Shown here: positions 6,129 to 33,805 of the stretch, one piece after another | Position numbering within the stretch: the stretch's first letter is position 1 | How the letters are laid out: each line of letters starts with the position of its first letter | From: Thermostichus lividus PCC 6715 | Lineage (GTDB): Bacteria; Cyanobacteriota; Cyanobacteriia; Thermosynechococcales; Thermosynechococcaceae | DNA: 64,000 nt | NCBI RefSeq assembly: GCF_002754935.1 | Contig: NZ_CP018092.1 | Location: forward strand, 2,586,501 to 2,650,500 | Direction: 5' to 3' | The notes under the pieces: generated by a model | Databases searched by the model: none | Seen by the model: only the letters and a program-made list of their open reading frames with translations | Told to the model about the DNA's origin: nothing | Translations under genes and position numbers: made by a program

Positions 6129-7817
6129 CTAGGGTGCAGAAACTGGTGTCAAGGATAGAGAATCGGTGACCGGTGCGTGGGTGGTATTTTGATAGCTCGG
6201 TCCCAGCAAGGTGGCCACCGTTAACACTTGGGGAGGGGTGGCATCGGGAGGATAGAGCAAATCGACGCTAACATTTCGTTTTTCGCCTGGGCGCATATTT
6301 AAGGTCACCAGCGGTTCGCCCCGCTGCCCCCGCCGCTGCACCAAATGGACATAGCGTTCTTGGGGCTGCCCCACATCATCCGTAAAACGCACCCGCACTG
6401 TTCCGCGGAAAAACACTTGGGGAGCGGGCGGCTCTAGGAACTGCAGGCTCACCGTACGGTGATCCTGCTTGAGGGGGGTTTGCAGCGTTACGACAACCGA
6501 CTGAAAACTGCGGCTATCATTCAGCAAGGGCAGTGTCAAACTATAGTGCACACCATAGTTACCGTGAGCATAGTAAGCTGTATCGGGATAGCGCGCCAAC
6601 ATTGGTGCACTTTGGATTTGCCCGGTGCCAAGGGTGCCTCGATGGAGGGTACTAATACCGTAGGAAATCGCCCGACCGGGTGCTGGAATGGTTAGCGCCG
6701 TCCCTTGACCGTGTTCATCGGTCAGGCTAGCTTTCCACTGCGACCCTCGACTGATGCCTGCTACGCGGCCATAGAAAAAGCGGGGGGACGTGCTATTGGG
6801 AGGCGTGGGGGGAATATCTCGGGGGGTTACCAGTTGTCCACGATGGAGCATTGTCCACCACTCTTCAAGGGTTGGTGCTCGCTCCGTACCATGTTCACTC
6901 ATACGGGCAAACATCGACATTTTGGCAAGGTAGATTGGCCCGTTGCTTTGCAAATGCATGAGGGTTGAGCGACCATTGGAGGACGAGACCTCACCAAACG
7001 GACTAACATCGGTAATCAAGGGCATCATCGGGCCAACGGTACCGTCTTGGTTGATCATAAACTCAGCACGGGCGCGGTTAATGACCGCATTAGGAAACTG
7101 GGTTGGCAGGGGCAACGGTAAATTACTCAGCATTCGTGCTTCCCGTGCCGGAATAACCACTTGAGAGGGGAAAAAGGTTTGGCGCACCCCCCGCAACACC
7201 TGATTGGTGACGCGGCTGCCCGGCCCCGAAAAAACATAGCCAATAGGGTTGTCGACGATTGCCGGTAAGCTGCGGAACGGGGCATCCGGCGTGCTTAAGA
7301 AACTGGCAGCTTGGTAAAAGGTGACGGTAACCGGGCGATCGCTGGGATTGTAGGCCAACAGCCCCAAATAAATTGTTGGTGTACTAACGGCTCGATTGGA
7401 TTGGGTAATGTGGTGGGCAAACACATCAAAGCGTCCTTGTATAGGATAGTTAAGATGTGCTGCCGGTTGCCATTTGCCTTGGGGGGGAAACGTAGAGAGT
7501 AAAATACCCTCACTTCGCACCATTTCAGGGCTGTTGCTGTTAAAGACGGGGATGTTGTCTAGGTGCCCTGGCAGAGGCCGAATATCTTGGGGAAAATAGG
7601 CAAAATTTGTTGGTGTGACGTAAGCCGTTGCGGCTGGCGTAGGTGGTGTGCTAACGCGTGGAGCTTGCGCACCCACAGGCGCAGCATTTGCCTGAACAAT
7701 AATACTCGACTGCACCGAATGCTCCTGGACAACAACCGGAACCTGTTGAGGTGGAGTAGGTAAAGCGGCTTGAGCCAAAAGAATGGGAGCCAGCATATTA
7801 TGTCCAAACCACAGCAT
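6129..7817 (-). CDS. DUF3370 domain protein, secreted
   Basis: 562 residues, or 555 from the inner ATG (MLAPILLAQAALP), which gives a short signal-peptide-like N-terminus. A Pro/Val-rich linker follows to about residue 70, then the DUF3370 domain begins at IRPLPGHLDNIPVFNSN and continues through EGILLSTFPPQGKW and GRFDVFAHH. The family is almost confined to cyanobacteria and has no known function. The protein has no transmembrane segment after the signal and is probably periplasmic or exported. Upstream lies a 400-bp spacer shared divergently with rpaA. Confidence 0.88.
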   Translation of the reverse strand: MLWFGHNMLAPILLAQAALPTPPQQVPVVVQEHSVQSSIIVQANAAPVGAQAPRVSTPPTPAATAYVTPTNFAYFPQDIRPLPGHLDNIPVFNSNSPEMVRSEGILLSTFPPQGKWQPAAHLNYPIQGRFDVFAHHITQSNRAVSTPTIYLGLLAYNPSDRPVTVTFYQAASFLSTPDAPFRSLPAIVDNPIGYVFSGPGSRVTNQVLRGVRQTFFPSQVVIPAREARMLSNLPLPLPTQFPNAVINRARAEFMINQDGTVGPMMPLITDVSPFGEVSSSNGRSTLMHLQSNGPIYLAKMSMFARMSEHGTERAPTLEEWWTMLHRGQLVTPRDIPPTPPNSTSPRFFYGRVAGISRGSQWKASLTDEHGQGTALTIPAPGRAISYGISTLHRGTLGTGQIQSAPMLARYPDTAYYAHGNYGVHYSLTLPLLNDSRSFQSVVVTLQTPLKQDHRTVSLQFLEPPAPQVFFRGTVRVRFTDDVGQPQERYVHLVQRRGQRGEPLVTLNMRPGEKRNVSVDLLYPPDATPPQVLTVATLLGPSYQNTTHAPVTDSLSLTPVSAP

Positions 7818-8235
7818 CTAATTTGAGTGAGTAGTTCGCAAAAACGGACAGAGTAACGTCCTCTGCCCCAAAGTTGCATTTCCAAAGTATAGCCCAGGTT
7901 TGCAGAAAATCTAGTTAATGCTGCATAGAACTAAAAATCGACTAGTACCACAAGGGTAGTCTGGTTGCTCGTAATTCCTGATTTGGGGTTCGTTTGAGAG
8001 CATCCAACTACTCTCCTAAGAGTAAAGTAACCCAAGCCAATGGGCAACGCTGTTGCGCTCCTGACCGCCACATGGACACAAGGTACCAGCAATTGGGTTG
8101 TAGTGTTGCTCCCTGCGCCAAATATTGAGCCAATCTAAAGAAATCCAACAAAGTCTTAAGCTTTTTGCTGAGATGTTTATAATTCTCTCAGAGGTGCTTG
8201 TCCCTTGCCCGTGAGGATTGAGTAACGTCGATTCT
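7818..8235. promoter_or_regulatory. Divergent spacer upstream of rpaA with a TATAAT box
   Basis: A gene-free spacer between the DUF3370 gene and rpaA. A perfect TATAAT lies at 8178-8183, with a weak -35-like TTAAGC about 16 bp upstream of it, placing a plausible transcription start near 8190 for rpaA. There is no convincing riboswitch or small RNA. The region from 7910 to 8150 holds no repeats or ORFs that I can support. Confidence 0.5.
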
Positions 8236-8964
8236 ATGAAGCCTCGTATTCTAATTATTGATGATGACCCAGCGATCGCCGATGTCTTGGCGATTAACCT
8301 GCAAATGGCAGGCTACGATGTCACAAAGTCCTTGGATGGGATGCAAGGACAAGCGTTGGCCGTGCAGATTTCCCCGGATCTGATTTTATTGGACTTGATG
8401 CTGCCGCAGGTCGATGGCTTCACGATTTGCCAGCGCCTACGGCGCGACCCCCGCACCCAAGACATTCCCATTTTGATGCTGACTGCCCTCAGTCAAACCC
8501 ACAATAAGGTAGAGGGGTTTAATGCGGGTGCCGATGATTATTTGACGAAGCCCTTTGAATTAGAAGAGATGTTGGCACGGGTGCGAGCGCTGTTGCGGCG
8601 CGCTGACCGCATTCCAGCCACCGCTGGGCATCGGGAAATTCTTAGTTATGGGCCTCTAACCCTGATTCCTGAGCGCTTTGAGGTCTCGTGGTTTAGCAAA
8701 ATCATCAAGCTGACACGCTTGGAATTTGAACTATTGCATTGCCTGCTGCAGCGCCACGGCCAGACTGTGTCTCCGAGCGAAATTCTCAAGGAGGTTTGGG
8801 GCTATGACCCAGATGATGACATCGAAACCATTCGTGTTCATGTCCGCCATCTGCGGACGAAGCTGGAGCCAGACCCGCGTAGCCCGAAGTACATTAAAAC
8901 GGTTTACGGGGCAGGTTATTGTCTTGAACTGCCCAGTCACATTGAGCCAGTGGCGGCACGTTGA
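8236..8964 (+). CDS. rpaA: Circadian output response regulator RpaA
   Basis: 242 residues from ATG 8236 (a TTG at 8218 adds six). OmpR/PhoB-type regulator: a receiver domain at about 1-120 with acidic pocket DDD (9-11), phospho-acceptor Asp53 in LLDLMLP and conserved Lys in YLTKPFE, then a winged-helix domain at about 135-235 ([28 protein letters not shown]). The sequence is unmistakably RpaA: Asp53 is the residue phosphorylated by SasA and dephosphorylated through CikA, driving dusk-phase gene expression (established in Synechococcus elongatus). Its partner SasA is also in this window at 47.1 kb. The 3' end overlaps larB by 28 bp in convergent orientation. Confidence 0.95.
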
Positions 8965-9722
8965 GGGAGCGATCGCAACATTTTAGCCGCTAGCATCGCT
9001 GCGCCAAAGCCATTGTCAATATTCACCACGCCAATGCCGGGGGCACAGGAGTTGAGCATAGTGAGTAGGGGAGCGAGACCTCCGAGGTTTGCGCCATAGC
9101 CAATGCTGGTGGGCACGGCAATCACCGCTGCACTCACTAGACCCGCCACAACACTGGGTAACGCGCCTTCCATGCCGGCCACGACAATGAGAACCTGCAT
9201 TGTTTCAAGGCGATCGCGCACACTGAGCAGCCGATGAATTCCTGCCACACCCACATCCCAAAACCGCTCCACCGCAAACCCCGAGAGTTGTAGCGTGATG
9301 GCGGCTTCTTCGGCAACGGGTAAATCGGCAGTGCCAGCACAGACTAGGCCAACCTGTCCCGGATAAGCAGGTGGCAAGATAGGGGCTGTACTACAGATTT
9401 GCGCCACTTCAAAGTAGTGCAGCCCTCCTAGGCGCGATCGCACCGCCGCAAAAACATCCGCAGAGATACGGGTGGCCATAACACAGGGATAGTAAGGCCG
9501 CATCCGCGCCAAGATTTCGGCAATTTGTTCAGGGGTCTTGCCAGGCCCCCAAACAACTTCAGGAAACCCTGTACGCTGTTGCCGTTGATGGTCAATCCGG
9601 GCAAAATGGCCAATGGTTTCGTAGCTCAGGTGTTGCAGTTGACGGTGGGCAGCCTCTACGCTTAACTGTCCTCGGGCAAGTGCCTCTAGTAACTGCCGCA
9701 CAGGATCGGCGCTGTCCATCAA
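8937..9722 (-). CDS. larB: Nickel-pincer cofactor biosynthesis protein LarB
   Basis: 261 residues. LarB carboxylates and hydrolyses nicotinic acid adenine dinucleotide as the first step toward the nickel-pincer nucleotide cofactor (established for Lactobacillus LarB). The C-terminal half is PurE-like (AIR carboxylase fold): [31 protein letters not shown] and [12 protein letters not shown]. An N-terminal helical part ([16 protein letters not shown]) is typical. No larC, larE or larA is present in this window, so if the cofactor is made the other genes are elsewhere. Its last 28 bp overlap the end of rpaA, tail to tail. Confidence 0.92.
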
Positions 9723-9767
9723 AAATCCTCCGAAATCCCGTCATCTGGTGCTAGGGAGTTCCTCTCA

Positions 9768-11246
9768 TTAGCCTCCAATCCCCAACTGGCCTGCCAAGCC
9801 GGGGGCTAAGGGAATCAGTGTCGCTGCCATTAAAAACAGCAGTAGCAGCCCCAACCCCGCGCGGGTATCATCCGGCTCGGTCATTTCATCCAAACTAGGA
9901 CGATCTAGGTCACGCTGTAGCAGGAGAATAATCAGCGCCCAGTACAGGGCTAAGGGATTGACGATCGCCACCAAGCCCAACACAATCAGGGTAATCCATG
10001 TCAGGCGCTGAGCGGTTTTAATGCCATAAATCGCTTGAATGATCCGACCGCCATCCAATTGCCCCGCAGGCATGAGATTGAGGGCGGTGATAATCAGTCC
10101 TAGCCACCCCATAATCACCAAGGGATGCACCGCCACAACCTCACTTTGCAAGTGGTCGCCCAAGAACAGACGAGAGAGAGTGCCCACCAAAATTGACCCT
10201 TGGAAGAAAATAGTGGGCACCTCTAAACCGCTACTGCTGGGAGAGAGCACCAAGCCAATACCCAGAAATAGCAACGACAATGCCCCAGAGGCAATCGCTC
10301 CTGCAGCAGCAATGTCAAATAGCTCGTTGCGGTTTTTCAGAAACGATTCAATGCGGGTTACAGCACCGAAGGTACCCAACTGCCACGCAGGCAGAAAGAA
10401 GGGGGGGCTAAGTTTAGCATCGTAGCGCTTGGCCATGAGCCAATGTCCTAGTTCCCGCGCTCCGGCAATCAGCACTAAACAGAGCGCCAAAGGGAGCGAT
10501 CGCTGAAACAAACCCGGCGTATTCAGTAAACTAAAGCCCTGGAGCACTGAACTGGTTTCTAGGCAGGTGCCAAGGGTCGCTACCCCTAGCAACACCGCGG
10601 TTAGTTTTTGTAAGAGCGTTGAGCGAGCTATGGTGGTCGTTGCCGGCAAAATAATGACCACAGCCTTGCCCTCGCTATTGGGCACCATAAATAGGCGATA
10701 GCGATCTGGCAATGTAGCTTGCAAGCGTTCTGTTAGAGTGGCATGCACTGCTTTCGCATCACCGCGCAGGTTGCCGCGACAGATCACCCCGCCTTTGTAG
10801 GGAATGTACTCAGTGGCAAAGTAGGTATCAATACTAAAAATACTTTGAATTCCTTGCAGATCGTCTGGCGGCAAGGCAGAGGGGGCACTGGTTGTGAGGG
10901 GTTCGCCACTGTCAGGGGTAGATTGTGAGGGGGCAAGGACGTCATCAACCTCAGGTCGCCCCGACCGCAAGGGTGGTAATGGTGCATCGGAGGTGGCAGC
11001 AAGGAGGCGTAACCAGCGACCCAAGGCAATGTAGGCCACGATGGAGAGGACAAGGCTAAACAAGACAGCGGCAAAGTTGAGGACAATGCCAACACTCAAG
11101 GTGCCAAATACCACCAGCCATGGCAGCATCAGCACTAGGGTTTGCAACCAAGCAATAATGCCGAGTTTGCCGTAGGGTAGGGCGCGATAGAGTCCCCAGC
11201 CCAACAGGGCGATCGCCCCCGCGAGTAAGCCTGCTGTAATGATCAT
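9768..11246 (-). CDS. Site-2 protease (M50) family membrane protein, Egy-like, with RELGH motif
   Basis: 492 residues. Two N-terminal hydrophobic helices (to about residue 85) are followed by a Pro/Ser-rich linker, a soluble GREEN-like domain (about 130-210), then a multi-helix M50 core. The second catalytic motif is intact as NLMPAGQLDGG. The first, normally HExxH, reads GARELGHW at about residue 265: the first zinc-binding His is Arg (CGG codon). Related proteins in chloroplasts (EGY3) also lack zinc ligands, so this could be a pseudoprotease with a chaperone or regulatory role, or a second active homologue may exist elsewhere. It lies 54 bp downstream of htpG on the same strand. Confidence 0.85.
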   Translation of the reverse strand: MIITAGLLAGAIALLGWGLYRALPYGKLGIIAWLQTLVLMLPWLVVFGTLSVGIVLNFAAVLFSLVLSIVAYIALGRWLRLLAATSDAPLPPLRSGRPEVDDVLAPSQSTPDSGEPLTTSAPSALPPDDLQGIQSIFSIDTYFATEYIPYKGGVICRGNLRGDAKAVHATLTERLQATLPDRYRLFMVPNSEGKAVVIILPATTTIARSTLLQKLTAVLLGVATLGTCLETSSVLQGFSLLNTPGLFQRSLPLALCLVLIAGARELGHWLMAKRYDAKLSPPFFLPAWQLGTFGAVTRIESFLKNRNELFDIAAAGAIASGALSLLFLGIGLVLSPSSSGLEVPTIFFQGSILVGTLSRLFLGDHLQSEVVAVHPLVIMGWLGLIITALNLMPAGQLDGGRIIQAIYGIKTAQRLTWITLIVLGLVAIVNPLALYWALIILLLQRDLDRPSLDEMTEPDDTRAGLGLLLLFLMAATLIPLAPGLAGQLGIGG

Positions 11247-16639: not shown

Positions 16640-17547
16640 AAATCTAATAGATACTCAAAAGTGGTTCCCATTGTAATGTAATTACTAGGCCAGCCAAATA
16701 TACCAACTTTATTAACAATGTTGGTTCTATCCCAGATAATCGTATTTCTGAGTTCATAGCCTCGCTTTCTTAACTCTTCAATCAGGGCTACATGAATGGT
16801 AATACGCTGATCTTCCCACCACATATCAGGAACATTGATCACACAGTGAGCTTTCGGCTTCAACAGTGGCAGAAGTGACTCAAAAATATCACCCATGGCT
16901 GTAGTATATTCTGCCAGAGGCATTGTTCCTAAGTCCCGCGTATCCTGTGAGTACTGCTCGATCTTGCCAAATTGTTCATTGCGACGGTTTCTCCTAGACT
17001 TGTTCGTGCGCCTACGATTCAGTAGGTTAGCGTAGGGGGGAGATGTCCAAATCAAGCTAATCATTTCAGGCTCAAAGTAGTTAGGGATATTTCTAGCATC
17101 ATCTTGCAAGGCTAGTTGTTGGGCTTGATTGAATAAATTATTAGCAGCTAGGCGTTCTTGGCATAACTGAATATATGTTGCATTCAGATCAAACCCAACA
17201 GCATTGCGATTTAGATCCTGAGCAGCAACAAGAGTGGTACCACTGCCAACAAACGGGTCGAGCACAAGTTCACCTTCATGGCTAAACAGGCTGATCACGC
17301 GCTTAGCAAGAGCAATAGGAAAGGTTGCTGGATGTAAATTTTTATCACGAATATCTCTGCCTTCATAAGTAAACTGCCAGACACCAAGCTGACACTTAAT
17401 CCATTCCTTGGCACTGAGACAGTTGATATGATTTGCTGGACAAGAACAGGTTCGTGTATGCGCAATAGAAATCTTTTGCTGACTTTGAGGAACTGAGCTT
17501 AAGGAAGCAGCTAGCGCCGCCGGAGTATTCGTATTGGTGAGCAACAT
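16621..17547 (-). CDS. DNA (cytosine-N4)-methyltransferase of the MvaI/BcnI-type system
   Basis: 308 residues. SAM-binding motif I is DPFVGSGTT (97-105), the catalytic motif IV is TSPPY (168-172); SPPY rather than DPPY is typical of N4-cytosine methylation, matching the known MvaI/BcnI partners. An N-terminal stretch with four cysteines (CSCPANHINC) may be structural. The stop overlaps the endonuclease start, giving a compact MR operon read leftwards. The frame is complete, so the system is predicted active. The promoter probably lies in the AT-rich 17550-17640 segment. The next gene upstream (MoaD-like) is separated by about 300 bp. Confidence 0.9.
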   Translation of the reverse strand: MLLTNTNTPAALAASLSSVPQSQQKISIAHTRTCSCPANHINCLSAKEWIKCQLGVWQFTYEGRDIRDKNLHPATFPIALAKRVISLFSHEGELVLDPFVGSGTTLVAAQDLNRNAVGFDLNATYIQLCQERLAANNLFNQAQQLALQDDARNIPNYFEPEMISLIWTSPPYANLLNRRRTNKSRRNRRNEQFGKIEQYSQDTRDLGTMPLAEYTTAMGDIFESLLPLLKPKAHCVINVPDMWWEDQRITIHVALIEELRKRGYELRNTIIWDRTNIVNKVGIFGWPSNYITMGTTFEYLLDFWRPPQ

Positions 17548-29982: not shown

Positions 29983-30039
29983 GCCCCTCTCCTGAAAGAT
30001 TGCACCTTAGTAAAACCAACAAGAACCCTTCACATCGGG

Positions 30040-31322
30040 TAGGGCTGGAAGCCCCGTACTTCAGTGCGGGGAGGAAAGCCTCTTTAGCAACTTCAGTTGC
30101 CATATTACCATTTAGGCGCATAAAATGAACTCATGCCACAGCAAATACTGACCATTGTCTGTCAACTAAATCCCACTGCAGAGCAAATTGTCAAGCTAGA
30201 CCAAGTTCTGCAGGGCTTCGCTGAGGCTTGCAGATACATCAACAGTACCATTTGCCCCAGCATTACTAACAAGAACCGTATTCAGAAAGAAGTTTACAGA
30301 GCAGTACGACAGCAATTCGGCTTAACCGCTAACTTGGCTGTCAGGGCTTGTGCCAGAGTTGCCGCTAACCGCAAGGTGGGAAAGGTTAAGGGATTCAGGG
30401 CTACTTCTGTGGATTATGATGCTCGCCTGTTTGACTACAGAGCGAAAGAACAATGCGTTAGCCTCTCCACCCTAAACGGACGGGAACGCATTCCCTTAGT
30501 GGTGGGTAACTACCAGATAGAAAAACTCAAGGGCAAGAAGCCTACTTCTGCCACTCTCTGCAAACGCAAAGATGGTAAGTTTTATATCCACATCCAAGTA
30601 AAGGAAGAAGTGCCAGAACCTCAGACTGGACATGGGGTTTTGGGCGTTGACTTCGGTAGGACAGACATTGCACATACATCGGAAGGAGACAACTGGCATG
30701 GACAGCAGTTAACTAAGGTACGAGACCACTACTCCAAACTGAGGGCGGTACTCCAGCAGAAAGCCAGTAAAGGCACACGCAGTTCTAGGCGTAGATGTCG
30801 GGAACTGGTGAAACGGCTATCTGGCAGGGAGAGACGCTTTCAGGCATGGGTAAACCACTGCATTTCTAAGACCATTGTGGCAAGGGCAAAAGCAACGGGC
30901 AGTGTTATTGCTTTGGAAGACCTGACAGGGATACGGGAGCGCACTAATCAAGTACCTCGTTCTAAAACAGAGCGTAGGCGTGCCAACAGTTGGGCGTTTT
31001 ACCAACTGCGTAGCTTCATTAGCTACAAGGCACTCAAAGCAGGTGTGGGAATAGTGCTAGTTAATCCTCGCTACAGTAGTCAAACTTGCCACAGATGCCT
31101 GCATATTTACCCCGACCCAAAGCAGTCCTATCGCACTGGGAAGCAGTTTAAGTGCGGGCATTGTGGCTGGACAGGAGACGCAGATTTCAATGGTGCTAGC
31201 GTAATTGCGCTTTTGGGGGCTGTTGTAAACCAGCCTAGAGGTTCGGGCTTGTCTTGTTCTCTTGCAGAACATAACAGGCTCAGGGCTACTGAAAGCCCCT
31301 GACTTCAGTCAGGGGAAGTTTA
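30040..31322 (+). mobile_element. IS1341-type element (IS200/IS605 family, TnpB only)
   Basis: Left end: a hairpin formed by GCCCCGTACTTCAGTGCGGG at about 30053-30072, then AGCAACTTCAGTTGCC. Right end: the CCCCTGACTTCAGTCAGGGG hairpin at 31296-31315 directly after the tnpB stop, followed by AAGTTTACT. There is no tnpA, so it depends on a Y1 transposase elsewhere. The right end should also encode the guide scaffold (omega-RNA/reRNA) for TnpB, with the guide taken from the flank beginning near 31323. A decayed relative is at 20.6-21.7 kb. Confidence 0.85.
30133..31302 (+). CDS. tnpB: RNA-guided endonuclease TnpB, intact
   Basis: 389 residues. RuvC-type nuclease guided by RNA from the element's right end (established for ISDra2 TnpB). 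Catalytic residues appear intact: Asp in GVLGVDFGRTD, Glu in IALEDLTGIRERTN and the final Asp in GDADFNGASVIALLG. A four-Cys zinc ribbon lies between them (CHRC and CGHC). The N-terminal part has the helical and wedge regions (AVRACARVAANRKVGK). The frame is complete, so it may be active. It is the only TnpB of this type in the window that is full length. Confidence 0.92.
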   Translation: MPQQILTIVCQLNPTAEQIVKLDQVLQGFAEACRYINSTICPSITNKNRIQKEVYRAVRQQFGLTANLAVRACARVAANRKVGKVKGFRATSVDYDARLFDYRAKEQCVSLSTLNGRERIPLVVGNYQIEKLKGKKPTSATLCKRKDGKFYIHIQVKEEVPEPQTGHGVLGVDFGRTDIAHTSEGDNWHGQQLTKVRDHYSKLRAVLQQKASKGTRSSRRRCRELVKRLSGRERRFQAWVNHCISKTIVARAKATGSVIALEDLTGIRERTNQVPRSKTERRRANSWAFYQLRSFISYKALKAGVGIVLVNPRYSSQTCHRCLHIYPDPKQSYRTGKQFKCGHCGWTGDADFNGASVIALLGAVVNQPRGSGLSCSLAEHNRLRATESP

Positions 31323-31636
31323 CTGGCAATCTATGATGGAAGTATCTATAGATTGAAGCGCGAGATAAGTTGTAGCGATAGCCCATGGTACCATTCTTTT
31401 TCGCTGAAGCTTGAGCCATTCTGTTGCCAGCACCAAAGCGATATTGCCGTTTGTAGTGGCCGCATTTAGTGAGCCTCTAGCCGTAACAGAGCAGTTGGAG
31501 TGAGGGCTGATGCGATCGTTGACGGTCAAGGTGAATCTGATTGGTATTGAGCCGCTGTCTGATAGGGGCACGGGTTTTACGCTGCGTGTAGTGATTTTTC
31601 TCAATACAATACAGATCTGAATGGAGGCACTCAGGT

Positions 31637-32125
31637 ATGGAACCTCAAGTTAAGGCTAAACCCACGTCACTATACGATGAAGATTACCAACGTTGGTTAG
31701 ATCAAACGGTTGCTCAATTGAAAGCGCGCAACTTTAGTGATCTTGACTTGGAAAATTTAATTGAGGAGATTGAGAGCTTGGGCAGAAGTGAGAAACATGC
31801 AATTTCAAGCTATCTCATGTGCTTATGTGAGCATCTCCTCAAAATTAAGTATTGGGAATCTGAACGAGAGATGTGCTTGCGAGGTTGGAAACGTGAGGTC
31901 ATCAACTTCAGATTGCAAATTCAGGAGGAGTTGGAAGTCAGTCCTAGCTTGAAGTCGTTTTTACAGGATGTTTTCCGTAAACAATATAAAAATGGTAGAA
32001 AGCTTTTTCTCAATGCAAGTGAGTTGAATGCCTACTTGATTCCTGAAGAGCCGGTATTTTCATTGGAGCAAGCCCTAGATGAAGACTGGCTCCCTTGGCC
32101 GCCAGAATCGTCTTCTCGTTCGTAG
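31637..32125 (+). CDS. DUF29 domain protein (copy 1)
   Basis: 162 residues. DUF29 proteins are small, almost entirely helical and of unknown function, abundant as multicopy families in cyanobacteria. The conserved core is seen: LYDEDYQRWLDQTVAQLKA, LDLENLIEEIESLGRSEKHA, a middle LCEHLLKIKYWESER and the C-terminal FSLEQALDEDWLPWPPES. The RBS-like GGAGG lies at about 31622. Highly similar to the next copy; differences are spread along the protein, and both frames are open, so both copies may be under selection. Confidence 0.88.
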   Translation: MEPQVKAKPTSLYDEDYQRWLDQTVAQLKARNFSDLDLENLIEEIESLGRSEKHAISSYLMCLCEHLLKIKYWESEREMCLRGWKREVINFRLQIQEELEVSPSLKSFLQDVFRKQYKNGRKLFLNASELNAYLIPEEPVFSLEQALDEDWLPWPPESSSRS

Positions 32126-32267
32126 CGATCTCAACAACAAATAAAGGTTTTACTACAACCTTTTGCCTTAATCATGTCTCAACTCACATGCCCAACTGTC
32201 CAATGCGCGCGGGGCAAGGATGGTGTCCACGAGATGGATATTGTGGGGTCTGCGATGCCGATCCAAG

Positions 32268-32387
32268 AGTGTCAGGGCAAGGTAGATTTGATTTATATCG
32301 ACCCGCTGTTTGATGTAGGTGCAGATTTTTCGAGGCGTGTGATATTGGCAATCAATACAATGAAGCAACTGATGGAGGTGAGGCACT
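32268..32387 (+). pseudogene. Adenine DNA methyltransferase motif scrap
   Basis: A short open stretch encoding QGKVDLIYIDPLFDVGADF, closely resembling the motif-IV region (normally DPPF/DPPY) of site-specific adenine methyltransferases, with the second Pro replaced by Leu. Nothing else of the enzyme is present. A more decayed version precedes copy 1 at about 31510-31625, so the scrap was part of the duplicated unit. It is not expected to be functional. Confidence 0.55.
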
Positions 32388-32876
32388 ATGGAACCTCAAG
32401 TTAAAACTAAACTCACGTCACTATACGATGAAGATTATCAACGTTGGTTGGATGAAACGGTTGCTCAATTGAAAGCACAGGATTTTAGCAGTCTTGATCT
32501 GGAAAATTTAATTGAGGAGATTGAGAGCTTGGGGAGAAGTGATAAACGAGCCATTTCCAGCTACCTGATGCGATTATGTGAGCATTTTCTAAAGCTCCGG
32601 TATTGGAAATCCGAGCGAGAGATGTGTTTTAGAGGGTGGGATCTAGAGATTACTAATTTTCGTTTGCAGATTCAAGCCATTCTCGAAGATAGTCCCAGCC
32701 TCAAAAATTACCTCAATGACCAGTTTTTATCTGCCTATGGCAATGCTAGAAAGCTTTTTCTGAAAGCAAGCCAACTGGAGTCCCAAGAAGTTCCTGATGA
32801 GCCAGAATTTTCGTTGGAGCAAGCCCTAGATGAAGACTGGCTCCCTTGGTCACCAGAATCGTCTTCTCATTCGTAG
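32388..32876 (+). CDS. DUF29 domain protein (copy 2)
   Basis: 162 residues, same length and domain as copy 1. Landmarks: LYDEDYQRWLDETVAQLKAQ, SLDLENLIEEIESLGRSDKR, RLCEHFLKLRYWKSE and the near-identical tail FSLEQALDEDWLPWSPES. Function unknown. The middle third (LEDSPSLKNYLNDQFLSAYG) is the most diverged from copy 1. The scrap of methyltransferase upstream and the IS at 30 kb suggest an accessory, recombination-prone locus. Confidence 0.88.
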   Translation: MEPQVKTKLTSLYDEDYQRWLDETVAQLKAQDFSSLDLENLIEEIESLGRSDKRAISSYLMRLCEHFLKLRYWKSEREMCFRGWDLEITNFRLQIQAILEDSPSLKNYLNDQFLSAYGNARKLFLKASQLESQEVPDEPEFSLEQALDEDWLPWSPESSSHS

Positions 32877-32962
32877 CGATCTCAACAACGAAATTACAGG
32901 GTCTGCGTTGATGTTGAACTGAAGTAGTGGCCTCAAAGCAAGTTGCTAGGTCTCTAATTCCA

Positions 32963-33406
32963 TCAGGCTATGTTAGGGGGAAGGCTCAACGTGCTGCGAA
33001 CTTGAGCTAGCAGTGACTCACGACTGACTTCCCAACCCTGCTCGCCATTGGGAGGCTCTAACACAATCAGGCTATCTACGGGGTCGGCAGCTAAGAGTTG
33101 GAACAGCAGTGGAATAATGGGCATTTCGACAACAACGAGTTGGCGATCGCCCTCACTATGGGCATTTGCCATCTCAGCACTACCGTAGGCGTGAATGACC
33201 ACCTTTTGGTGGTAGGGGGGATGGCGCTCTTCAAGGGTAATAATCTGCCACTGGCCATCCTCGGTTTGCAGCACATAGTACATGGTCTGCTGGTAGCGTT
33301 GGGCTTCCTCTAGGAGGATAGGGGCGATCGCCTGTACCGCCGCAATTGTTGCCGGGTCGTCTGGGGCGTTGGCAATTAATTGGTTAACTTGGGTGGCTAA
33401 ATCCAC
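32963..33406 (-). CDS. Conserved cyanobacterial protein, unknown function
   Basis: 147 residues from GTG 33404-33406 (VDLATQVNQLIANAPDD), chosen because an AAGGAGG ribosome site lies just upstream; a longer frame exists to 33481 but is poorly supported. No known domain is recognised. The protein is soluble and mixed alpha/beta, with an acidic central part (LQTEDGQWQIITLEER) and a C-terminal helix. It follows the small membrane-protein gene at 33435-33805 by about 30 bp on the same strand, so they may be co-transcribed. Confidence 0.7.
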   Translation of the reverse strand: MDLATQVNQLIANAPDDPATIAAVQAIAPILLEEAQRYQQTMYYVLQTEDGQWQIITLEERHPPYHQKVVIHAYGSAEMANAHSEGDRQLVVVEMPIIPLLFQLLAADPVDSLIVLEPPNGEQGWEVSRESLLAQVRSTLSLPPNIA

Positions 33407-33434
33407 ACCGCCTCCTTGGATCGAGTGGCACGAC

Positions 33435-33805
33435 CTACTTTTTCGCGTCAAGGGCATCAAGGTCAAGGGCTTGGGAGCCACCCGTACCCAAAATGGTCAG
33501 CAGCTTGCCCAGTTGGTACCACACTAAAATGGCCGTGGCAACCGTCAGCCCAAGGGCGATCGCTATGCTCAGCCGTGCAGGAAAGCCATAGGTCCATAGC
33601 CCTGCGCTCAAAAATAACCAAATTCCTAAACAAATACCTAAGTAAGGTACCTGTAGCTGGAACCGCGAAGCTGACTGAGAATACGCGTTGAGCGACTACG
33701 GTTCCACTCCTGCACACTTTGTTTCAGGGTGGCCTCAAAAGCCTTGCCACTGGCCAACCCTATAAAAATTCCGGCAAGCAGCACTACAATGGGTGGATCA
33801 AACAC
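33435..33805 (-). pseudogene. Small membrane protein gene with a frameshift
   Basis: Starts at GTG 33805 (FDPPIVVLLAGIFIGLASGK, a membrane helix), runs to QSVQEWNRSRS, then the frame must change near 33680 to reach FQLQVPYLGICLGIWLFLSA and a second helical hairpin ending in ALDLDALDAKK at 33435. The two halves are consistent as one cyanobacterial membrane protein of about 123 residues. Start and stop are not in the same frame as written. Unlike other frameshifts in this window, there is no obvious homopolymer at the break, so either real inactivation or an error is possible. Family unknown. Confidence 0.65.

Follow-up and report, generated by a model that had tools for sequence, protein, structure and literature searches.

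The two tandem DUF29 genes in the window (the whole 64,000-nucleotide stretch analysed here, positions 2586501-2650500 of the 2.66-Mb single-contig genome of Thermostichus lividus PCC 6715) are two orphaned cassettes, each led by a decaying scrap of the 5' end of a Type III restriction-modification methyltransferase gene (mod). Together, the genes and their scraps look like leftovers of a type of cassette array seen in a number of cyanobacteria. A cassette of this type consists of the 5' end of mod (H, codons 1 to ~125), a small cargo gene or gene pair and a hairpin tail, and the final H of an array continues into mod.

The initial annotation had pointed to two DUF29 genes with related leaders, starting at 31505, and to a sequence in the second leader close to motif IV of adenine methyltransferases, of which the first leader kept a more decayed version. 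All of this held, with the start right to within 1 bp (Table 1). The two proteins scored 159.3 and 165.8 bits against a gathering threshold of 22.5 and matched the PF01724 profile over 1-138 of 138. The alignment of leader 1 with leader 2 had 92 identities, 24 mismatches and 25 gap columns, and its local score was 63, whereas 300 first-order Markov shuffles reached 27 at most. An HMM of codons 1-128, built on 17 mod genes (the H model), matched both scraps significantly (E 6e-9 and 1.4e-17), and direct alignments to the mod of a congener scored 50 for leader 1 and 96 for leader 2 (shuffle maximum 30 for each). Because the leaders match both the mod model and the congener mod, the 'IYIDPLF' in leader 2 is motif IV of this mod. 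The matches of the H model to scrap 2 lay at 32262-32351 (E 1.4e-17, codons ~95-125) and 32228-32267 (E 0.003, codons ~35-47); the frame from the mod start codon was still open despite internal deletions, and it stopped at a TAA 14 nt inside the second DUF29 gene. The possible tail remnant overlapped the 3' end of the first DUF29 gene.

Table 1. Features of the DUF29 cassettes and their right flank (positions are those of the window)
Feature	Position	Strand	Evidence
mod 5'-end scrap 1, codons ~93-123 of Type III mod, decayed	31506..31595	+	nhmmer, H model, E 6e-9, model 279-368
DUF29 gene, cassette lineage 1	31637..32125	+	Pfam PF01724, E 8.5e-47; tree
Possible cassette-tail remnant (ACTACAACCTTTTGCCTT) ahead of mod start codon	32112..32173	+	nhmmer, tail model, weak, E 9e-3, 32112-32170; by-eye comparison
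mod scrap 2, open 76-codon frame from mod start codon (ATGTCTCAACT...) via GKVDLIYIDPLFDVGADF	32174..32404	+	ORF list; H model; junction
DUF29 gene, cassette lineage 2	32388..32876	+	Pfam PF01724, E 8.1e-49; tree
Right-flank neighbour gene	32963..33481	-	blastn

The predicted DUF29 structure was helical (model pLDDT 89.4) and resembled 3fcn (Z 12.0, rmsd 4.7, 132 aligned). This known DUF29 structure was the only good match, and a likeness of the model to C3PO/translin was rejected since its Z of about 5 was within the range of common helical arrangements.

No mod of the family of the scraps was found near them, and tblastn searches of the window for Res, Uma2, HepT and DUF2283 gave no match. 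Elsewhere in the window (16702-17397, minus strand) there was another N6_N4 methylase (PF01555) of a different family with a 313-aa open frame, the two PF01555-matched parts of which were permuted (positions 138-220 before 1-84 on its own strand). A TnpB gene (30133-31302) lies upstream of the DUF29 pair, and sequence surrounding it (30027-30099 and 31213-31256) recurred with 96% and 82% identity at L058 8651-8829, beside the other DUF29 cluster of the genome (three DUF29 genes, 1408214-1409544); an IS200/IS605-type remnant may therefore sit at both clusters. On the right flank, DNA homology to 10 other genomes of the genus started at 32965 or beyond, and blastn aligned no DUF29 at the counterparts of this flank (at least 11 kb at seven of the ten places and ~3.3 kb at three). 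As the DUF29 ortholog of genome G008 was also at another chromosomal place, cassettes occupy different places in different genomes.

The intact mod of the same genome is at 1.109 Mb (L007, L081), where ResIII and Uma2 genes adjoin it, and was assigned to Type III by PF01555 (E 5.6e-44) and PADLOC MTase_III (757.5 bits; L007). The Res partner (ResIII, PF04851) was present near mod at L081 and at L068 of G008, and the 14 kb around the intact mod held no second N-terminal copy. Inserted into the G008 mod itself (L068 7068-10079) was a segment with both a DUF559-type endonuclease domain and an intein C-terminal splicing motif (TIGR01443). A further mod-type 5' scrap was seen at L097 7126-7713 (G010), where a different methyltransferase (31% identity), reduced to a truncated N-terminal part, stood immediately ahead of another mod. 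Among phage and plasmid records just distant methyltransferases were matched, and the one plasmid region inspected had no array annotated.

The initial annotation had proposed that one junction of DUF29 and methyltransferase was doubled in place and then decayed. Such a local tandem duplication would explain why both leaders carry the same scrap and why the two DUF29 genes are 93-94% identical at their ends, but two middle segments of the genes were just 56-57% identical (pair overall, 74.7% protein identity, dS 0.98). In a tree of 36 DUF29 proteins, window copy 1 fell in a supported clade of 20 (99/98), along with the second G212 cassette, the G252 cassette and the G008 ortholog, and window copy 2 fell outside it. 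Over 101 central columns, the best identity of each copy was to a DUF29 in an array of another genome, namely 91% for copy 1 (G252, L251) and 89% for copy 2 (the first DUF29 of the G212 array, L249). Sisterhood of the window pair was rejected by the AU test (p 1.6e-4 on all columns, 1.3e-4 on the centre), in which the pair was that of the initial annotation and which followed sight of the tree. The same scrap-cargo unit also occurs with unrelated cargos. We therefore consider local duplication highly improbable and, the two genes being of separate cassette lineages, each scrap arrived with its own cassette. The similarity of the gene ends suggests that recombination homogenised them, and with the copies not being sisters, the dS of 0.98, from the synonymous comparison that the initial annotation had proposed, dates the cassette lineages rather than a duplication.

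The first lead to arrays was in G008, where an N-terminal-only copy of mod (L068 6071-6433) preceded the mod with a long open frame (7068-10079), with two small genes between them. With codons 1-128 of the G008 mod as query, a search of 388 genomes sampled evenly from a larger set of the class gave 69 matches in 41 genomes; 14 of the 41 carried two or more copies lying within 4.5 kb of each other. As a control, the C-terminal 128 residues of the mod from the genome of the window gave 32 matches in 30 of the 388 genomes, with tandem copies in none of the 30 (Fisher p 1.7e-4). Where two C-terminal matches were found in a genome, they were adjacent pieces of one gene (G020) or 205 kb apart (G252). 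Seven of the 30 genomes had no listed N-terminal match, and therefore lone 3' remnants of mod exist too. Loci were examined in 32 of the 41 genomes with N-terminal matches, the mods of the remaining nine being only 39-52% identical. N-terminal-only copies occurred in 19 of the genomes searched (G008, G020, G099, G104, G112, G113, G121, G193, G205, G212, G222, G249, G252, G293, G305, G321, G349, G356 and G417), with no cargo recognised beside them in G193 and G205, and mod 5' ends without cassettes were found at nine loci. Several loci were taken as identical stretches and are not independent (L253 and L113, L260 and L138, L261 and L112, L256 and L149, L258 and L117). Together, these searches yielded repeated fragments of an anchor gene, mod, beside a fuller copy, each fragment with a different cargo.

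All parts of the arrays lay on a single strand, in the order promoter-H-cargo-tail-H-cargo-tail-mod. The longest clear array (L249, G212) was H-DUF29-(insertion sequence)-H-DUF29-H-DUF6883/DUF4926-H-X/DUF2283-mod. Cargos identified with Pfam were DUF29, X with DUF2283, DUF6883 with DUF4926, a nucleotidyltransferase with HepT (MntA-HepT), PIN and XisH/XisI. X is a 111-aa protein, and none of the three tested reached a Pfam cut-off (one had a sub-threshold DUF4258 match). For the MntA-HepT cargos, PF01909 and PF01934 were adjacent and above cut-off in L262 and L276, PF01909 was found twice in L252, and the pairs of L254, L256 and L261 were assigned by eye; judged by domain content, this cargo is of the toxin-antitoxin class. 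At seven places in five genomes MntA was fused in frame to mod codons 1-50, giving open frames of 169-181 aa. Among 20 ORFs scanned beside seven arrays, ordinary host genes stood at array heads (an M61 peptidase gene in L068 and a 2'-5' RNA ligase gene in L257), and XisH, Uma2 or ResIII followed mod in L068, L252, L257, L263 and L265.

By a fixed rule, 17 of 23 heads (solo or first H; the misses were L272 and five others) had a TATAAT box in the 80 bp preceding them, compared to none of 28 internal H copies or array-end mods (Fisher p 7e-9). At the latter, the tail stands where the promoter would be. In clear cases a tail with two hairpins directly followed the cargo stop of DUF29, DUF4926 and DUF2283 cargos, and none followed MntA-HepT; its predicted folding energy was -19.0 kcal/mol, a value without a shuffle control. 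Searches of eight genomes with the 80-bp tail gave 14 matches (in four of the eight), 11 of them in arrays and three being short pieces elsewhere. On these counts we rejected the tail as a genome-wide repeat, though core pieces of 25-28 bp occur elsewhere too. The 28-bp palindromic core of the tail was repeated several times at or past the 3' end of mod in L250 (11457-12484) and L264 (6856-7679).

The point at which a scrap gave way to its cargo depended on the class of the cargo. Scraps ended at H model position 368-369 before DUF29 (L249 twice, L250, L253, L257, L258 and L260, with 368 and 374 in the window), at 365-367 before DUF6883 (six), at 375-376 before X/DUF2283 (five, with L253 at 368), at 367 before PIN, and at 148-149 before MntA-HepT (L254, L256, L261, L262 twice, L276 and one of two in L252, the other being at 162). 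The ends at 319 in L251 (at an insertion sequence) and at 160 in the first scrap of L257 did not fit the class pattern. The junctions of three cargo classes fell within ~10 bp of each other, tighter than random illegitimate joins, for which a site-specific enzyme, a hot spot or the exchange of cargos at a single old junction could account.

In 18 of the 23 junctions scored by script (out of 25; L055 and L111 were left out), the mod frame was open through the join and stopped -2 to +14 nt from the cargo ATG, although these counts are not independent owing to shared ancestry within cargo classes, with two DUF6883 cassettes (G212, G252) being nearly identical. The stop was at +1 in all six DUF6883 junctions, at +8 in five of six X junctions (+1 in the sixth), and at +14 in five and -2 in one of ten DUF29 junctions; the other four DUF29 junctions and the PIN junction lay outside this stop-on-start pattern. 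In the window, the junction of scrap 2 was of the +14 kind and that of scrap 1 was broken (-19). At L258 4296-4853 (G249), a frameshifted mod scrap and the DUF29 behind it formed a single in-frame ORF of 185 aa. A mod frame ending on or beside the cargo start codon is, as a sequence pattern, as expected of translational coupling, which has not been kept everywhere because many scraps are shortened or frameshifted (four of the ten scored DUF29 junctions).

Two readings of these arrays as the work of a dedicated insertion process bear on the same features. In a site-specific, integron-like system a recombinase would recognise the tail or the end of H, which would be its attachment site, and insert cassettes there; the promoter-first layout, the near-identical left junction of three cargo classes and the two-hairpin tail shared by three classes right behind the cargo stop all speak for it. 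Nevertheless, we think such a system quite unlikely, as Pfam assigned no integrase family to any of the 20 scanned ORFs flanking seven arrays, the MntA-HepT cassettes have no tail and a different junction, and the repeated joint is hundreds of bp long, a length suited to homologous recombination. Alternatively, a cassette might transpose as a unit and copy several hundred bp of its target. Such an insertion predicts a cargo between two copies of the 5' end of the target, as was found, but the tail is one-sided, in the place of the promoter, and the junctions vary with the cargo; we regard it as decidedly unlikely.

The arrays were in varied states of repair. Where H restarted as mod (15 arrays), the terminal mod had an open frame of at least 596 aa in seven (L068, with the intein, L249, L252, L255, L261, L263 and L265) and was deleted, interrupted, stopped early or cut by a contig end in the other eight; at eight further scrap loci (L259, L262, L273-L277 and L279), no mod followed within the stretch examined. 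Many scraps had been deleted from the 5' side with the last 30-40 codons before the cargo kept. Median dN/dS of eight intact scraps was 0.17 among themselves and 0.13 against full mods, with 0.09 for full mods, a test biased by its restriction to intact scraps. These values look like constraint or recent renewal. One could hold that the scraps are plain debris, dead ends of repeated mod replacement, with the cargo there by chance through defence-island clustering; the many deleted or frameshifted scraps, the first scrap of the window included, and the eight arrays in which the last mod is broken or cut are what this would produce. It does not sit well with the fixed order and orientation, the class-specific junctions, the stop-on-start overlap at most scored junctions or the purifying pattern of the eight intact scraps, and we therefore consider it unlikely.

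The reading we favour, and hold to be probable on sequence comparison, is that serial recombination adds a cargo and a new mod 5' end while the old 5' end is left as a leader scrap. In this model, imported DNA that bears a cargo together with a mod 5' end would undergo homologous recombination with the resident mod at its right side and be joined illegitimately at its left, near mod codon 125 or 50. This would rebuild mod behind the cargo and displace the old 5' end as a scrap, which, with the mod promoter and start codon, would then act as a putative transcribed and translated leader of the cargo, so that expression of the cargo would be tied to that of mod. Recombination between H copies might later reshuffle the cassettes. 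The observed part of this model comprises the order, the common orientation, the class-specific junctions, the mod frames ending at the cargo start and the shuffled order, with G212 and G252, of different genera, having common cassettes at 90-93% identity in differing order; from these we infer the recombination events. Rebuilding of mod is not universal, given the defective or cut terminal mods and the scrap loci with no mod described above. Judged by H model E-values, the first scrap was weaker than the last in six of the seven arrays that allowed a comparison within one class (L249, L252, L253, L257, L262 and the window, but not L250), mostly by small margins, which is only a hint that the older scrap may be at the promoter end and that cassettes may be added next to mod.

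How far the link extends within DUF29 was assessed with 80 close relatives from public genomes, the best of 331 found. The H model matched at 11 of 46 loci with 56-83% DUF29 identity and at none of 34 with 38-50%, although the Fisher p of 0.0019 for this split is purely descriptive because the split was drawn after the hits were known, and five of the 11 hits were weak (L111, L119, L132, L136 and L137, E 1e-5 to 1e-3). With tblastn, mod starts or scraps were found beside DUF29 at L112, L113, L117, L138 and L149, in line with the search of relatives that the initial annotation had proposed. An association of DUF29 as a whole with methyltransferases was not supported, there being no H hit at E 0.01 in 26 loci from across the phylum (L190-L215) or in those of the genus (L053-L067); DUF29 was present in 30 of 78 genomes of the phylum sample. 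A weak H hit at L055 (E 0.01), the ortholog in a congener at another chromosomal place, arose in a smaller search set. L055 seems to keep a much shortened mod scrap, but its two pieces, which scored 32 and 35 against mod (shuffle maxima 35 and 32), are each about at chance level. Tandem DUF29 pairs ~510 bp apart, in which mod scrap was undetected, were present at L053 and L054 (G003, G006), and thus tandem DUF29 exists outside mod arrays too. Four viral contigs with distant DUF29 relatives gave no H hit. The recurrent link to methyltransferases suspected in the initial annotation is consequently real in other genomes but confined to one DUF29 subfamily. Similarly, its suggestion that DUF29 once was joined to or followed a methyltransferase gene was correct as to a genuine mod fragment, but in the arrays DUF29 has a displaced mod 5' end on one side of it and the start of the following mod on the other. 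The defence or mobile-element role that it raised is plausible as a hypothesis.

Parts of this organisation resemble known systems. Orphan toxin modules of Rhs and CDI loci are arranged in tandem, each starting with a stretch of the main gene that permits recombination. The tandem modules described here likewise start with a piece of the main gene, but the toxin-tip swapping of those systems was not seen, the sole in-frame fusion being that of MntA to mod codons 1-50. Integron gene-cassette arrays have the promoter first, small cargos, an integrase gene and an attC site after the cargo. The mod arrays share with them the leading promoter, the small cargos, a structured tail after most cargo classes and toxin-antitoxin cargos, and differ in the lack of an integrase among the 20 scanned ORFs, in a joint that is a ~370-bp gene segment and in having mod as the last element.

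In the parts of the report on orphan immunity-gene arrays of Vibrio cholerae type VI secretion that we consulted, module displacement is proposed and homology-facilitated illegitimate recombination is discussed (PMC5361080). The proposal there, as here, is that modules are successively added at an anchor gene, with displaced parts left as an array, in addition to homologous recombination (PMC5361080). However, 3' ends and immunity genes are left downstream in Vibrio cholerae (PMC5361080), whereas here mod 5' ends are left upstream of a restarted mod, and the cargo here is toxin-antitoxin-like rather than effector immunity. For some restriction-modification genes, insertion with long target duplication has been proposed, with variable duplications in the order of 100 bp according to the sections consulted (PMC3874152). 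The likeness is that inserted DNA lies between long copies of the target (PMC3874152); the arrays with several cargos, the one-sided tail and a target that is itself a restriction-modification gene are unlike it. Microcystis MaOC1 also has a cyanobacterial toxin-antitoxin pair between direct repeats, but, in the portion of the report available to us, its 152-bp repeats are intergenic and not described as the 5' end of a gene (PMC7935541). Such cassette arrays were not found described in the open-access literature searched (titles and starts of abstracts). DUF29 as a whole word was likewise absent from it, the apparent 'DUF29' in the part of PMC3710099 seen being the longer name DUF294.

We tentatively raise a further interpretation, though it is unlikely, in which the 5' end of mod serves as a dedicated platform for cassettes, both a rebuildable landing site and a translational leader tying toxin-antitoxin-like cargo to expression of the host Type III methyltransferase. 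Mod and cargo would then rise and fall together, loss of the island would be punished, and DUF29 would serve the platform as a single-gene cargo for addiction or abortive infection. Among cyanobacteria DUF29 is common and unexplained; one subfamily is now placed among the toxin-antitoxin-like cargos of a definable array type, and DUF29 function is therefore directly testable. The arrays also suggest a route by which small defence-type genes may accumulate at a restriction-modification locus with little harm, because each insertion could rebuild mod and turn the displaced 5' end into a leader for the cargo.
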